Source of the DNA: an uncultured Bacteroidota bacterium
GTDB lineage: Bacteria > Bacteroidota > Bacteroidia > Chitinophagales > Chitinophagaceae
NCBI GenBank assembly: GCA_946480675.1
Contig: CAMLKS010000164.1
Span: 1 to 5,974, forward strand
DNA: 5,974 bases
Direction of reading: 5' to 3'
Shown: positions 822 to 5,540 of the stretch, one piece after another
Layout: every line of letters begins with the position of its first letter
Numbering within the stretch: position 1 is the first letter of the stretch
Notes under the pieces: generated by a model
Database searches by the model: none
What the model saw: only the letters and a program-made list of their open reading frames with translations
What the model was told of the DNA's origin: nothing
Program-made: the position numbers and the translations under genes

Positions 822-853
822 TTGGTTATTAGAAAAAAATATCCTTAGTTTTG
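822..853 (+). promoter_or_regulatory. Bacteroidetes-type promoter for the leader/aminotransferase/aspartokinase unit
   Basis: TAGTTTTG at 846-853 is a perfect match to the Bacteroidetes -7 consensus TAnnTTTG. A TTG at 822-824 lies 21 bases upstream, within the usual distance for the -33 element. Transcription should begin around 858-861, only a few bases before the leader ORF start at 864. No comparable box lies between the terminator (ending 989) and the aminotransferase start at 1022, so this is the likely promoter for the downstream genes. The position of the transcription start is inferred. Confidence 0.65.
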
Positions 854-863
854 CGCCACGATT

Positions 864-914
864 ATGAATAACAAGATGTATAAGAAGGCCGATAAACGTT
901 TTACCACCAGGTAA
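864..914 (+). CDS. Putative leader peptide (16 aa) of an amino-acid attenuator
   Basis: A short ORF reads MNNKMYKKADKRFTTR and stops at TAA 912-914. It begins just after the predicted transcription start, so its mRNA would be almost leaderless. An internal Met at 876 is an alternative start that leaves a longer 5' UTR. Of 16 residues, 11 belong to the aspartate family (Lys x4, Asn x2, Met x2, Thr x2, Asp x1), which fits the aspartokinase gene downstream. The Lys/Met codons at 873-887 lie at least 22 bases before the antiterminator strand (909-917), so a ribosome stalled there would leave that strand free. A ribosome at the stop codon would cover it. Stalling at the two Thr codons (903-908) would probably cover the strand too, so Lys or Met sensing fits the geometry better than Thr. 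The composition could be partly chance, because these codons are A-rich. Translation is not shown. Confidence 0.5.
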   Translation: MNNKMYKKADKRFTTR

Positions 915-983
915 GCCGCAACGACTTCTTATGTGTATAACATACAGTACTGAATCTAAAGGCTTACCTCCACCGGGTAAGCC
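904..983 (+). repeat. 14-base direct repeat making two alternative pairing partners
   Basis: CCACCAGGTAAGCC (904-917) recurs as CCACCGGGTAAGCC (970-983), with 13 of 14 bases identical. The first copy spans the last codons and stop of the leader ORF. The second spans the loop and 3' arm of the terminator. Both can pair with GGCTTACCT at 961-969, so the repeat is the basis of the structural switch. Confidence 0.8.
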
Positions 984-989
984 TTTTTT
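961..989 (+). terminator. Intrinsic terminator inside the operon leader
   Basis: GGCTTACC (961-968) and GGTAAGCC (976-983) form a perfect 8-bp stem around the loop TCCACCG and are followed directly by TTTTTT (984-989). It lies 33 bases before the aminotransferase start and downstream of the promoter at 822-853. It is therefore more likely a regulated attenuator than a plain end for the OstA-like gene, although it could serve both. Confidence 0.85.
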
Positions 990-1021: not shown

Positions 1022-2284
1022 ATGAGCCAGTTAAGCCAGCTTGCAGAAACACTGATCGGGTCTGAAATAGTGCGCCTGGGTAATGAGATTGCCGTGCGTG
1101 TAAATCGTGGTGAGAAAATATATAACTACACCATCGGCGATTTCGATCCGCAGATATTTCCCATTCCACAAGAACTGGAAGATGCCATCATAGATGCGTA
1201 TCGCAACAAACTGACCAACTATCCTCCCGGCGATGGGTTGCTGGAGTTAAGGCAGGCAGTAGCTTCATTCATTAAAGACCGTGAGGGGATTGAGTATGCC
1301 GCGAATGAAGTGCTGATAGCTGGCGGGGGCCGCCCGCTTATTTACTCACTATTCCGTACCATAGTAAACCCCGGCGATAAAGTGTTGTATGCAGTACCAT
1401 CGTGGAACAACAATCACTACACGCACATGAATGGTGGCGAGCATTGTGTAATAGAAGCCACACCCGAAAACGACTTTATGCCTACGGCTGCTGATATAGC
1501 CCCGCATATAGCAGGCGCAGCATTACTATGCCTGTGCACACCGCAAAACCCTACCGGTACTACACTGGCAAAAGCCGAACTGGAAAAGATATGCGACCTG
1601 GTGCTGGAAGAAAACAAGCGCCGTGGTGATGGTAAGAAACTATACGTGATGTTCGACCAGATGTACTTTACACTTACTTATGGAGAAACGGAACATTACA
1701 ACCCTGTATCGCTTCGCCCAGAAATGAAGCCATACACCATTTTTATCGATGGTATCTCAAAAGCATTTGCTGCCACCGGTGTGCGTGTAGGTTGGTCTTT
1801 TGGTCCTGCACATGTGATAGCTAAAATGAAAGCACTACTCAGTCATATTGGCGCGTGGAGCCCAATGGCTGAACAGAAAGCCACAGCGCAATACCTGCTG
1901 CAGAAAGATGCGGTAAACACCTACCTTACTTCTTTCAAAAAAGAATTGGAAGAAAGGCTGTGGGCCATCTATAACGGTATCATTGCACTAAAAGAAAAAG
2001 GGTATCCTGTAGATGCCATCGCGCCACAGGCGGCCATTTATCTTACCATCAAGATAGACCTTGCCGGCAGAGAAGCAGATGGTAAGCAACTGGCCAATCA
2101 GGCAGAGGTTACAGAATACCTGCTCAATGAAGCGAAGCTGGCTATCGTACCGTTCTATGCATTTGGTGCCAATAAGCAGTCGCCTTGGTATAGGCTGAGT
2201 ATAGGCACTTGTAAAAAAGAGGAGATAGCAGAAATGCTGGGCATGCTGGAAGGGGCACTGCAAAAGCTAATGGTACTCAGTTAG
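1022..2284 (+). CDS. PLP-dependent aminotransferase, class I/II (aspartate aminotransferase-like)
   Basis: A 420-residue fold-type I aminotransferase. Visible landmarks are the N-terminal segment YNYTIGDFDPQIFPIP (34-49), the NYPPGDG region (66-72), GGGR near 101-104 in the cofactor phosphate loop, NPTG at 176-179 (Asn contacting PLP), D212 and Y215 in FDQMY, and the Schiff-base lysine K247 in SKAFAATGVRVGW with R255. R391 in WYRLSIG is the expected arginine for the substrate alpha-carboxylate. All key catalytic residues are present. Length is slightly above the usual ~390-400. The start ATG follows an A-rich stretch without Shine-Dalgarno, as is normal in Bacteroidetes. The gene sits between the attenuator and aspartokinase, suggesting a role in making aspartate or in a transamination step of the aspartate family. 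The sequence does not look like LL-diaminopimelate aminotransferase (DapL). The family is certain; the substrate is inferred from context only, so no symbol is given. Confidence 0.9.
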   Translation: MSQLSQLAETLIGSEIVRLGNEIAVRVNRGEKIYNYTIGDFDPQIFPIPQELEDAIIDAYRNKLTNYPPGDGLLELRQAVASFIKDREGIEYAANEVLIAGGGRPLIYSLFRTIVNPGDKVLYAVPSWNNNHYTHMNGGEHCVIEATPENDFMPTAADIAPHIAGAALLCLCTPQNPTGTTLAKAELEKICDLVLEENKRRGDGKKLYVMFDQMYFTLTYGETEHYNPVSLRPEMKPYTIFIDGISKAFAATGVRVGWSFGPAHVIAKMKALLSHIGAWSPMAEQKATAQYLLQKDAVNTYLTSFKKELEERLWAIYNGIIALKEKGYPVDAIAPQAAIYLTIKIDLAGREADGKQLANQAEVTEYLLNEAKLAIVPFYAFGANKQSPWYRLSIGTCKKEEIAEMLGMLEGALQKLMVLS

Positions 2285-2333: not shown

Positions 2334-3599
2334 ATGCAGGTTTACAAATTCGGTGGGGCATCTATAGCCAGCCCTGAACGCATGATGGCGTTATTACCCA
2401 TAATACAGGATGCAAAACAACCGATCATTATGGTTGTATCGGCATATGGTAAAACTACCAATGCCCTGGAAGCAATAGTAGCGGCGGCATGTAAGGGTAA
2501 GAAGCAGGAAGCGCACGAAATGGTAAACACGCTGGAACAGCAACACCTGGCATACACCCGTGCATTGTTGAATGATAGCTACTATGTGCAAGCTGAAAAA
2601 GCACTGAATGTATTTTTTACTGAGCTGCAATGGGCGGTAGATGATGCGGATGCTGACAAATACGATTATTCATACGACCAGATTGTATGCATGGGAGAGT
2701 TGTTATCCACACGCATCTTTGCATTCTATTTACAGCAGAGTGGTTTGAACTTTGAATGGAAAGACATCCGCGATGTAGTGCGTACCGATGACACCTATCG
2801 CGATGCGCGGGTAGATTGGGAATTCTCCAAGGCGAAAGCCGCAGAAATATTATCCCCCGTACTGGCCTCCGGCGCAAGCATTATCACGCAAGGTTTCATC
2901 GGCGCTACTTCCGATAATGCCTCGGTAACATTAGGTCGCGAAGGTTCCGACTATACAGCTGCTATGCTGGCAGCATGGTTGGGTGCCGAAAGCGTAACAA
3001 TATGGAAAGACGTAGAAGGCCTGCAAAATGCAGACCCTAAACTGTTTCCGAATACGGTGAAGATAGAAGCCATTACCTATCACGAGGTGATAGAGATGGC
3101 CTACTATGGGGCACAGGTGATACACCCTAAAACTATTAAGCCGCTGCAGAATAATAATATACCGCTGTATGTAAAATGCTTCCTGGATAAAGATTTGCCG
3201 GGCACGGTGATACAGAATGATGTGAACAGCATCTTCTACCCGCCACTTATTGTGCTGAAGAAAGATCAGGTATTACTGCAGGTGACATCAAAGGATTTTT
3301 CTTTCATTACACAGGATAACCTCAGCGACCTGTATAGCAAACTGCATGACCTGAATATTAAAGTGAACCTGATACAGAATGCCGCCATTAGTTTTGTGGC
3401 CTGTATCGATAATAAGGAAGACAATGTGAAGAAGCTAATGACTGCCTTAAGCAAAGATTACAATGTGCTTAGCAATAATGACGTTAGCCTGCTCACCATC
3501 CGTCACTATACACCAGAGATATTGTTCGACCTCACCAAGAGCCGCTACATATTGCTGGAACAAAAAACAAGGCATACCGTACAGGTGATTATGAAATAG
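2334..3599 (+). CDS. lysC: Aspartate kinase (aspartokinase, single-function)
   Basis: Phosphorylates L-aspartate to 4-phospho-L-aspartate, the first committed step to Lys, Thr, Met and diaminopimelate, in the cytoplasm. The 421-residue protein opens with KFGGAS (5-10), the nucleotide/aspartate site usually written KFGGTS. It continues with VVSAYGKTTNALE (34-46), GELLSTR (121-127), GREGSDYTAA (201-210), WKDVEGLQNADPK (224-236) and the YHEVIEMAYYGAQVIHPKTI segment (249-268). Residues ~305-421 form the ACT-type regulatory region, including DFSFI and IKVNLIQNAAISF, where feedback amino acids bind in the family. The protein is shorter than typical LysC enzymes of ~450 residues, but the length and the ending LLEQKTRHTVQVIMK resemble other Bacteroidetes aspartokinases. 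No homoserine dehydrogenase domain is fused. It lies 49 bases after the aminotransferase with no terminator between, so co-transcription is likely. A strong terminator follows at 3621-3649. The symbol is by function; paralogues elsewhere in the genome are possible. Confidence 0.92.
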   Translation: MQVYKFGGASIASPERMMALLPIIQDAKQPIIMVVSAYGKTTNALEAIVAAACKGKKQEAHEMVNTLEQQHLAYTRALLNDSYYVQAEKALNVFFTELQWAVDDADADKYDYSYDQIVCMGELLSTRIFAFYLQQSGLNFEWKDIRDVVRTDDTYRDARVDWEFSKAKAAEILSPVLASGASIITQGFIGATSDNASVTLGREGSDYTAAMLAAWLGAESVTIWKDVEGLQNADPKLFPNTVKIEAITYHEVIEMAYYGAQVIHPKTIKPLQNNNIPLYVKCFLDKDLPGTVIQNDVNSIFYPPLIVLKKDQVLLQVTSKDFSFITQDNLSDLYSKLHDLNIKVNLIQNAAISFVACIDNKEDNVKKLMTALSKDYNVLSNNDVSLLTIRHYTPEILFDLTKSRYILLEQKTRHTVQVIMK

Positions 3600-3620
3600 C
3601 CTGTTGATATAACTATTAAA

Positions 3621-3649
3621 AAAAGCGATTGGGTTATCCAATCGCTTTT
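3621..3649. terminator. Bidirectional intrinsic terminator between convergent genes
   Basis: AAAAGCGATTGG (3621-3632) and CCAATCGCTTTT (3638-3649) form a perfect 12-bp stem with loop GTTAT. T-rich sequence follows on the plus strand. On the minus strand, the A-run at 3618-3624 supplies the U-tract. It ends the aspartokinase operon and can also stop leftward transcription from the chaperone gene. Confidence 0.9.
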
Positions 3650-3659
3650 CTATTTTATG

Positions 3660-3682
3660 AGCCCCTTTAGGGGTTAGGGGCT
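3660..3682. repeat. CCCC/GGGG hairpin element at the chaperone stop codon
   Basis: CCCC (3662-3665) and GGGG (3670-3673) form a hairpin with loop TTTA. Alternatively, AGCCCC (3660-3665) pairs with GGGGCT (3677-3682). The element overlaps two bases of the chaperone stop codon (minus-strand TAG, 3683-3681). From memory, similar CCCCTTTAGGGG-type palindromes are frequent between genes in Bacteroidetes genomes, which would make this one copy of a dispersed family. Only one copy is in this window. Confidence 0.55.
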
Positions 3683-5540
3683 ACACTATCTTCTTCCCTT
3701 TCATAGCGTCCTTCAGTGCTGCATCCATTACACGTTCTGCAAACGGGCGTGTTACTTCATTCAGTAGTTCTGTTTCCTTTTGCACACGGTTTTTATCTTT
3801 TGTAGCTATGGCATCGCGCAGTTGTTGCAAATGTGTTTGTGTAGTGGCCAGTTCAGCTTCGCTCAGTAGTTCTCTATGCTTCACTACAAATTTCTCTGTA
3901 GTATCTATCATCTGTTCCGCCTCCGTGCTGGCTTCTACCAGTGCACGTGTTTGCATATCTTCTTTGGCATGCGTTAACGAATCCAGTAGCATGCGTTCTA
4001 CTTCTTCGTCTGTCAGTCCGTATTGAGGTTTCACATCTATACTGGTAGCTACACCGCTGCGCAGTTCGGCAGCGGTTACTTTCAGTATGCCGTCAGCATC
4101 TATCAGGAAGTTTACTTCTACTTTAGGCAATCCTGCCGGCATGGCCGGTATACCGCTCAGGTTAAATTCTGCCAACTTGCGATTGTCCTGCACCAGGTCG
4201 CGTTCGCCCTGGTACACAGATATGCGCATGCCGCTTTGCCCGTCTTTCTGCGTAGTATATTGCCTGCCTGCTTTTACAGGTATTTTAGAGTTGCGTGGTA
4301 TTAGCACATCCATCAGCCCGCCCATGGTTTCTATACCCAGGCTCAGCGGTGTTACATCTAGCAGCAGCATATCGGTGTTGTTACCGGCCAGTATATCGGC
4401 CTGCACCGCAGCACCCAGTGCTACTACCTCATCGGGGTTCAGGTTGTCATATACTTCTTTGCCAAAGAAAGCACTCACACTTTCTTTCACCAGCGGCACA
4501 CGTGTAGAACCACCTACCATTACTACAGCATCTATCTCAGTGGTTTGAAGGCCGGCATCGCGCATTGCGTTCCTGCAACAGGTTATGGTGCGGTTTACCA
4601 ATGGTTGTACCAGTTCATTGAAAGCTGTTTTTGTGATGCTTACTTTTTCACTGCCTACAGTGCCTTCAAAGCTATCGTTGCTGCTCAGGTGCTTCTTGGC
4701 TTCTTCGGCTGTCAGCCTCAGTTCCTGTGCCAGCGATTTATGCTGTTGCAGTTCTTCGTTGGTAAGGCCCAGTTCTTTTTGCCAGTGTTGTGCCAATGCC
4801 CTGTCCATGTCGTCACCGCCCAGGTAGGTATCACCATTGGTAGCCAGCACTTCAAATATACCGTTGGTTATTTTCAGTATCGACACATCGAATGTGCCAC
4901 CGCCCAGGTCATATACCGCTATTGTCTTCTCCTCATCCGGTTTTACACCCATGCCATAGGCAAGGCTGGCAGCCGTTGGTTCGTTTACAATGCGCAGCAC
5001 ATCCAGTCCAGCCAGCCTGCCGGCATCGCGCGTAGCCTGCCTTTGGGCATCGTTAAAATAAGCCGGTACGGTTATCACCGCTTTATTCACCGGTGTTTTC
5101 AATATATGCTCGGCGCGGTGCTTCAGTTCTTTCAGTATATAAGCAGAAAGTTCTATGGGCGAATAGAACTTATCGCCCGCTTGTATCTTCACCAGTGAAT
5201 CGGTATCGTCATCTATTACCTTGTAGGCAAAAAAGTTGGCGTGATCGCTCACGTCCTTATACGATTTGCCCATCAGCCTCTTTACGGAGTATATAGTGCG
5301 ATGCGGCTCTGCTATCAGCTTTTCCTTTGCGGCATTACCTACGGTTATATTACCTGCGTCGTCAAAGTGTATAATGGAGGGTACCAATGTCAAACCGTCT
5401 ACTTCGCGCAATGCCAGTGGCTGGCGGGTGTCTTCACGTACTATTGCTATCAGGCTGTTGGTAGTCCCCAGGTCTATTCCTACTATTGTTTCTTTCTGTT
5501 GTAAGCTTCCTGTTGCCAGGTTAATGGCTACTTTACCCAT
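3681..5540 (-). CDS. hscA: Hsp70-family chaperone, HscA-like (iron-sulfur cluster assembly)
   Basis: A 619-residue Hsp70. ATPase domain: GIDLGTTNS (21-29, phosphate 1), K87 in SVKRLMG (the ATP-hydrolysis lysine), ITVPAYFND (156-164), [11 protein letters not shown] (187-197), [11 protein letters not shown] (210-220, phosphate 2), [10 protein letters not shown] (342-351, adenosine) and [11 protein letters not shown]. The [15 protein letters not shown] linker (391-405) leads into the beta substrate-binding domain and a helical lid (~509-619). Three features favour HscA over DnaK: about 20 residues before GIDLGTTNS (DnaK has about five), a length close to E. coli HscA (616), and a basic KGKKIV end instead of DnaK's long acidic tail. 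Diagnostic-looking stretches such as [13 protein letters not shown] also resemble HscA. In the family, HscA with the J-protein HscB drives cluster transfer from the scaffold IscU. No isc, hscB or fdx gene is visible nearby. The gene is convergent with the aspartokinase gene and starts just after a -7 box. A DnaK paralogue is the main alternative. Confidence 0.82.

Follow-up and report, generated by a model that had tools for sequence, protein, structure and literature searches.

A putative lysine-codon attenuator before an aminotransferase–aspartate kinase operon of Chitinophagaceae, a relative of the his-operon leader

The window, which is the whole stretch of 5,974 nucleotides analyzed here from an uncultured member of the Chitinophagaceae (contig CAMLKS010000164.1), contains a leader region between an upstream gene and a gene for a class I/II aminotransferase, which is followed by a gene for aspartate kinase. 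We found that this leader combines a small lysine-rich open reading frame with two mutually exclusive RNA pairings, and that relatives of the leader carry His, Lys, or Lys and Thr codons in accordance with the gene downstream. Judging from the sequence and its comparison with these relatives, the leader is very probably an attenuator of transcription in which the ribosome senses charged Lys-tRNA, and we infer from this that the leader responds to lysine.

Anatomy of the leader in the window

The elements of the leader and the neighboring genes are listed in Table 1. The antiterminator strand X (909–917) and the strand at 961–969 form nine Watson–Crick pairs, and this pairing excludes the terminator, in which eight pairs (961–968 with 976–983) are followed by a T-run; in the predicted fold, the terminator helix extends to 12 bp (958–969 with 975–986). 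Both pairings had been described in an initial annotation of this DNA and proved exact in the sequence, as did its small ORF running into the first partner, with the TAA stop inside X. When positions 805–1021 were shuffled with their dinucleotides preserved, an 8-bp Watson–Crick terminator that has a T-run and whose 5′ arm finds a perfect partner further upstream appeared in 0 of 20,000 shuffles, and a 7-bp version of the switch in 0 of 5,000.

Table 1 Features of the window
Feature	Position	Strand	Basis
Upstream gene	end at 804	same as leader	
TAnnTTTG promoter box, TAGTTTTG	846–853	+	Sequence; ten bases 5′ of the leader ATG
Leader peptide ORF, MNNKMYKKADKRFTTR, 16 codons, TAA at 912–914	864–914	+	ORFs with Lys codons, of varying length, in relatives
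Control-codon stem, 5′ arm	876–887	+	Swap test of Lys leaders, 0/5000 permutations
Control region, Lys codons at 882, 885, and 894	882–896	+	Codon positions compared with relatives
Inner strand P (TTTACC), a mimic of the terminator 5′ arm that pairs with 910–915	900–905	+	Predicted fold
Antiterminator strand X, AGGTAAGCC, includes the stop codon	909–917	+	Pairing and alignment
Control-codon stem, 3′ arm, CTTCTTATGTGT	925–936	+	Swap test and pairing
Terminator 5′ arm, GGCTTACCT, also the antiterminator partner	961–969	+	Pairing and alignment
Terminator 3′ arm (976–983) and T-run (984–989)	976–989	+	Pairing and alignment
Class I/II aminotransferase (PF00155) at the head of the putatively regulated operon	1022–2284	+	Profile matches
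Aspartate kinase (TIGR00657 over cut-off)	2334–3599	+	Profile match
HscA-type Hsp70 gene	3681–5540	−	Over the TIGR01991 cut-off

The control-codon stem (stem 1) consists of 12 pairs, three of them G–U. The annotation held that this stem would trap X unless a ribosome occupies the Lys/Met codons; the stem is present, but it would not act alone, because a predicted inner hairpin within its loop (TTTACC at 900–905 with GGTAAG at 910–915) also holds X. This hairpin and the promoter box had both been missed. In addition to the Lys codons of the control region, which fall within the 5′ arm of stem 1 or shortly past it, the ORF has a Lys codon at 873, and the codon at 894 lies 16 nt 5′ of the first G of GGTA in strand X.

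We take TAnnTTTG to be the −7 promoter element of Bacteroidota. Since the box lies just 5′ of the leader ATG, transcription should start within a few bases of this codon, with the small ORF at the 5′ end of the transcript or close to it. Among 52 leaders of the window type and of the hisG type described below, 47 have a TAnnTTTG box within 40 nt 5′ of the ATG, at a distance of 4 to 12 nt in 38 of these 47, and with this spacing, the RNA from which the leader ORFs are translated may be leaderless or nearly so.

Occurrence and control codons of the leader

The aminotransferase gene is present in 121 of 147 genomes of the family, and we read the upstream DNA at 110 of these 121 loci. By eye, the leader was recognized at ten of the 110, namely, in G001 (the nearest relative genome of the window), G051, G027, G080, G070, G095, G102, G002, G032, and G126. 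A switch finder that is not tied to the arm sequence recovered six of these ten, the window itself, and two matches judged to be chance; it missed G102, G002, G032, and G126 (genera g2 and g32), where the helix between X and the terminator arm is mismatched. In the genus of the window, 14 of 15 genomes have the aminotransferase gene, and the finder detected the switch at 12 of 12 further loci, as well as in G001 and G095. The fifteenth genome, G351, gave no aminotransferase match at the cut-off, and its leader lies directly 5′ of the aspartokinase gene. Outside the family, the gene occurs in 87 genomes, from which 27 loci were fetched and 26 examined, with the switch at none of the 26. The leader is thus limited to some clades.

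Several candidate loci were set aside: the finder matches L060, L064, and L358 were taken as chance, and L127, L142, L145, L161, L162, L298, L299, L303, and L312 as spurious. In genus g57, L058 (G141) and L064 (G057) have a terminator with related arms (GGCTTGCT and AGTAAGCC) before the aminotransferase gene, with no clear X strand, control codons, or convincing leader; these terminators may be what remains of a leader that has decayed. A complete leader (L155) is present in G205, which belongs to the same genus.

To compare control codons, we counted the codons before X in 27 Lys-type leaders of aspartokinase operons (hereafter Lys leaders), ten of which had been added by pattern or by eye, and in 25 leaders of hisG (hereafter His leaders). 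The ATG was chosen by hand where several were open, and L001 and L187 (both the window leader again), L060, and L064 were dropped beforehand. Lys accounted for 103 of 391 codons in the Lys leaders and 16 of 353 in the His leaders (Fisher test, 3e-17), whereas His accounted for 15 of 391 and 121 of 353, respectively (5e-29). The proposal that Lys and Met codons act as sensors is therefore best narrowed to Lys, which is enriched in the leaders of relatives; Met, start codons aside, is not among the commonest six.

The position of the control codons is also shared. In 25 of 27 Lys leaders (codon 894 in the window) and in all 25 His leaders, the distance from the start of a control codon to X is 14 to 20 nt, so that Lys codons take the place of His codons at the same distance from the antiterminator strand; position −16 itself is the start of a His codon in 18 of the 25 His leaders and of a Lys codon in 11 of the 27 Lys leaders. 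X contains the stop codon, or has it at its edge, in 20 of the 27 Lys leaders and 21 of the 25 His leaders; the stop follows X in six Lys and four His leaders, and one Lys leader with a mis-set X start (L028) falls outside these classes. A ribosome finishing the ORF would therefore cover or cross X.

Related leaders at hisG, asd, and lysA

A search with the three-arm pattern matched 99 of 394 family genomes, and the backwards control matched one of the genomes listed. The 30 loci listed for the pattern comprise four Lys leaders of the aminotransferase operon, one spurious locus, and 25 with His-rich peptides; a hisG-like gene follows at all of the 25 but one, which ends early. At the class level, the pattern occurred in seven of 295 genomes, and the five outside the family are His-containing leaders before hisG-like genes. 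In a gene-driven search, hisG was found in 74 of 98 family genomes, and of 30 loci fetched and 28 examined, 25 had the switch and a His-containing ORF according to the finder.

The two kinds of leader resemble each other beyond their layout. Each of the 27 Lys leaders had a match at E ≤ 1 (database size set to 100,000) among 55 His leaders, with a best value of 8e-10 and about 0.4 for the two weakest, and reversed sequences gave no match; part of this similarity is built in, the 55 His leaders having been selected through the pattern of their arms. Identity reached 76% over 89 bases (L197 and L160) and 77% over 88 bases (L146 and L160). The his-operon leader and the window leader share a promoter-proximal ORF, control codons 14 to 20 nt before X, strand P, the X motif GGTARGC, the 3′ arm of stem 1, and terminator arms GCTTACC/GGTAAGC, with sequence similarity extending past the arms. 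They differ in that one has His codons and precedes the hisG operon, whereas the window ORF has Lys codons, contains no His codon, and precedes an aminotransferase gene rather than hisG. On this sequence evidence, we regard the window leader as related to the his-operon leader of the family, probably as its paralogue. A TIGR00070 (hisG) match is absent from several genomes with the Lys leader (G001, G095, G051, G070, and G032), which suggests that these genomes lack the his operon to which the sister leader belongs.

A covariance model of the second half of the leader matched 119 of 144 family genomes. Among its further matches, 20 were examined: eight before asd, two before lysA, one directly before aspartokinase (G137), five of the His type, and four spurious ones; the identity of asd and of one lysA was confirmed by family profile searches where the same genome was listed. 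Among the leaders that the model found are His-type ones (L302 and L308–L311) with arms that deviate from the exact pattern. With G351, there are two genomes in which a Lys-codon leader directly precedes aspartokinase.

At asd, a gene-driven examination found the switch at 20 of 30 loci, with peptides such as MKHTKRTKKRS; after the first residue, the 20 peptides contain 95 Lys and 39 Thr among 354 residues. These leaders (with ORFs of the KHTKRTKK type) share with the window leader the order of elements, Lys codons, and three-way arms, but they combine Lys with Thr codons, and their arms are GGAAGG/CCTTCC/GGAAGG, all three changed together, instead of GGTAAGC/GCTTACC. At lysA, 26 of 30 loci were examined with crudely set gene starts, so that a leader could be missed, and gave a single real leader, in G002 (MTLIANIKTIKTKKPYLYG), and one match judged to be chance; overall, a Lys-codon leader was seen before lysA in two genomes. 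The same design, with a Lys-rich ORF (MNSVIVLKIKKNKLFRKGRPV), was also seen in G098 (L167/L259, G098:C47:82942-83026) before a gene that by eye is a GNAT-like acetyltransferase and has no obvious role in lysine biosynthesis.

Codon identity in these leaders follows the end product of the downstream gene: His at hisG, Lys at aspartokinase and lysA, and Lys with Thr at asd. This agreement supports reading the window leader as a ribosome-coupled attenuator, as the initial annotation had suggested. We read the amino acid sensed as lysine because Lys-rich leaders precede asd (with Thr), lysA, and aspartokinase. Among 46 genomes with both regions examined, the asd leader was found in none of the eight with the aminotransferase leader and in at least 24 of the 38 others (Fisher test, 0.0012), where the counts are lower bounds, since the regular expression for asd leaders misses some (for example, G009, G010, G041, and G061), and the eight genomes may represent one or a few events. 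On balance, we favor a scheme in which one attenuator chassis was duplicated in the family for His (hisG), Lys (aminotransferase–aspartokinase and lysA), and Lys with Thr (asd) and was retuned when its control codons were exchanged and the pairing strand changed accordingly; in the lineages of the window, lysine control would act at aspartokinase instead of asd.

Coevolution, folding, and the proposed mechanism

Relatives have both the small ORF and the alternative arms, and we examined whether the arms change together. Because the whole-leader MAFFT alignment misaligned X in several rows, we used a shorter alignment (31 of 46 segments) and a swap test, in which partner arms are exchanged between leaders and no register has to be chosen; a block count of stem 1 was discarded for wrong registers in at least four rows. 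The leader sequences are related, and the permutation counts given below are therefore not probabilities, nor are the tests, which share ancestry, independent of one another. In 25 distinct Lys leaders, the 5′ arm of the control-codon stem paired with its own partner at −12.56 kcal/mol, compared with −10.63 kcal/mol for swapped partners (0/5000 permutations); in the His leaders alone, the test of this stem was not significant (1492/5000). Across the groups, His 5′ arms with Lys 3′ arms were much weaker (−8.17), and Lys 5′ arms with His 3′ arms (−10.19) were nearly equal to other Lys partners. The terminator gave 0/5000 in both groups, and the antiterminator a weaker signal (28/5000 for Lys and 142/5000 for His). 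In the 31-leader alignment, 100% of terminator cells were paired, with eight cells in two pairs changed on both sides; for the antiterminator, 95.2% were paired, with three such cells in two pairs. Compensatory change, which had been put forward as a check of the proposal, is thus seen in the terminator, in the control-codon stem of the Lys leaders, and, more weakly, in the antiterminator.

The inner helix between P and X is clearer in the group than in single leaders. It has at least 4 bp in 49 of 50 distinct leaders (20 nt away in two of these) and five or more pairs in 36 of 50, and as a group it was stronger than in shuffled upstream sequence (mean score 12.3 versus 9.1, Wilcoxon test, 4e-10). 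Against the leader's own shuffles, a value below 0.05 was obtained in only eight of 50, and among the 25 distinct Lys leaders, 11 have a helix of no more than 4 bp.

We then folded the leader RNA of the window with positions masked according to ribosome footprint sizes that we assume to hold for this leader. In the RNA up to 973, the antiterminator was the best structure with the ribosome on codon 894 (−18.9) and was not formed with the ribosome at the stop (−5.9). The nested fold of 858–973 without a ribosome also prefers the antiterminator (−20.5), so termination without translation would depend on stem 1 and the P:X hairpin forming first. In full-length RNA, the best structure contained the terminator in every ribosome state tried, and the switch must therefore be kinetic.

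The proposed mechanism is as follows. When lysine is scarce, a ribosome whose A site holds codon 894 would cover about 876–906, open the outer stem, mask strand P, and leave X free; X would then pair with 961–969 once this strand is transcribed, and RNA polymerase would read through into the aminotransferase and aspartokinase genes. When lysine is plentiful, the ribosome would reach the stop codon and cover X, and the terminator would form. If the ORF were not translated, the outer stem and the P:X hairpin would hold X and favor termination. The leader thus has the parts of a leader-peptide attenuator: a short upstream ORF rich in codons for the end product of the pathway, an antiterminator and an intrinsic terminator that exclude each other 5′ of the first structural gene, and, as far as the geometry and the assumed footprint indicate, an X strand placed so as to be exposed by a stalled ribosome and covered by one at the stop.

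An attenuator of this form could instead sense another signal, such as Arg, Tyr, nascent-peptide arrest, or a general slowing of translation, with its Lys codons reflecting A-rich sequence. Arg (31 of 391 codons versus 8 of 353) and Tyr (27 of 391 versus 10 of 353) are also more frequent in the Lys leaders than in the His leaders. However, Lys is concentrated in the reading frame of the Lys leaders, falling from 103 of 391 to 20 of 384 and 24 of 367 in the other two frames; leaders of this design have His codons at hisG and Lys or Lys with Thr codons at lysA, aspartokinase, and asd; and the P:X pairing accounts for part of the peptide between the control codons and the stop. We therefore consider a different signal improbable. 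The coordinates of stem 1 and the antiterminator are compatible with an H-type pseudoknot, as expected for a metabolite riboswitch or pseudoknot in which loop strand X of the 876–887:925–936 stem pairs with 961–969 and the ORF is incidental. Such an element would not account for an ORF and control codons that are retained while codon identity shifts with the pathway, the conserved columns are mainly the arms, and no Rfam riboswitch matched the window or nine relatives, which makes this reading very unlikely. Hardly any weight falls on a reading without regulation, as a hairpin arising by chance or as no more than the terminator that ends the upstream gene: that gene ends on the same strand as the leader, but the promoter box lies in between, strand X and the ORF recur with the terminator, and the arms coevolve.

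Attenuators with a leader peptide are textbook regulators of amino-acid operons, whereas control by lysine is usually known as a riboswitch, and to our knowledge lysine is absent from the classical list of amino acids sensed through leader peptides. Lopatovskaya et al. (2010) reportedly treat attenuation of amino-acid operons in bacteria and may hold related predictions. Published statements touch on Flavobacterium psychrophilum, presumably of the same phylum as the window organism, and Sinorhizobium meliloti, which we take to belong to another. For F. psychrophilum, leader-peptide attenuation, the same kind of mechanism, has been proposed in general terms 5′ of amino-acid operons, but the passage names no lysine, peptide, or structure, and its supplementary tables may list related leaders (PMC9723704). 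For S. meliloti, the short ORF SEP5, which precedes an aspartate dehydrogenase gene and has six Thr codons and three Lys codons, resembles the present case as a suggested leader peptide of the aspartate family, compared here by description only, but the passage is without attenuator anatomy (PMC10117765). The passages reached by our literature search contained no lysine-codon attenuator and, for the phylum, general statements on attenuation only (PMC9723704 and PMC7366714). The lysine riboswitch (L box, RF00168), which precedes lysC in other bacteria (PMC2659441), also imposes lysine control on aspartokinase through premature termination, but does so by a ligand-binding aptamer without a leader peptide. 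Neither a lysine riboswitch nor a T-box was matched up to E = 5 in Rfam searches of the window and nine relatives. In the same searches, no family reached its cut-off; one relative gave a Thr_leader match at 23.4 bits (cut-off, 55). The enterobacterial trp, his, and thr attenuators similarly let the position of the ribosome on end-product codons select the antiterminator or the terminator, but the window fails the gathering scores of His_leader (RF00514) and Thr_leader (RF00506).

If the proposed reading is true, these bacteria would have a lysine and lysine-plus-threonine regulon with a clear anatomy, and their leaders would be a case, in natural sequences, of codon exchange on a conserved RNA switch, in which a change of codon is predicted to switch the amino acid sensed.

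The Rfam scan of the window gave a sole match, below the cut-off, to L20_leader (3563–3659, 22.7 bits). This weak match spans a strong hairpin (AGCGATTGGGTTATCCAATCGCTTTT, 3624–3649) 3′ of the aspartokinase gene; the hairpin lies between the convergent aspartokinase and HscA-type genes and is probably their shared terminator.
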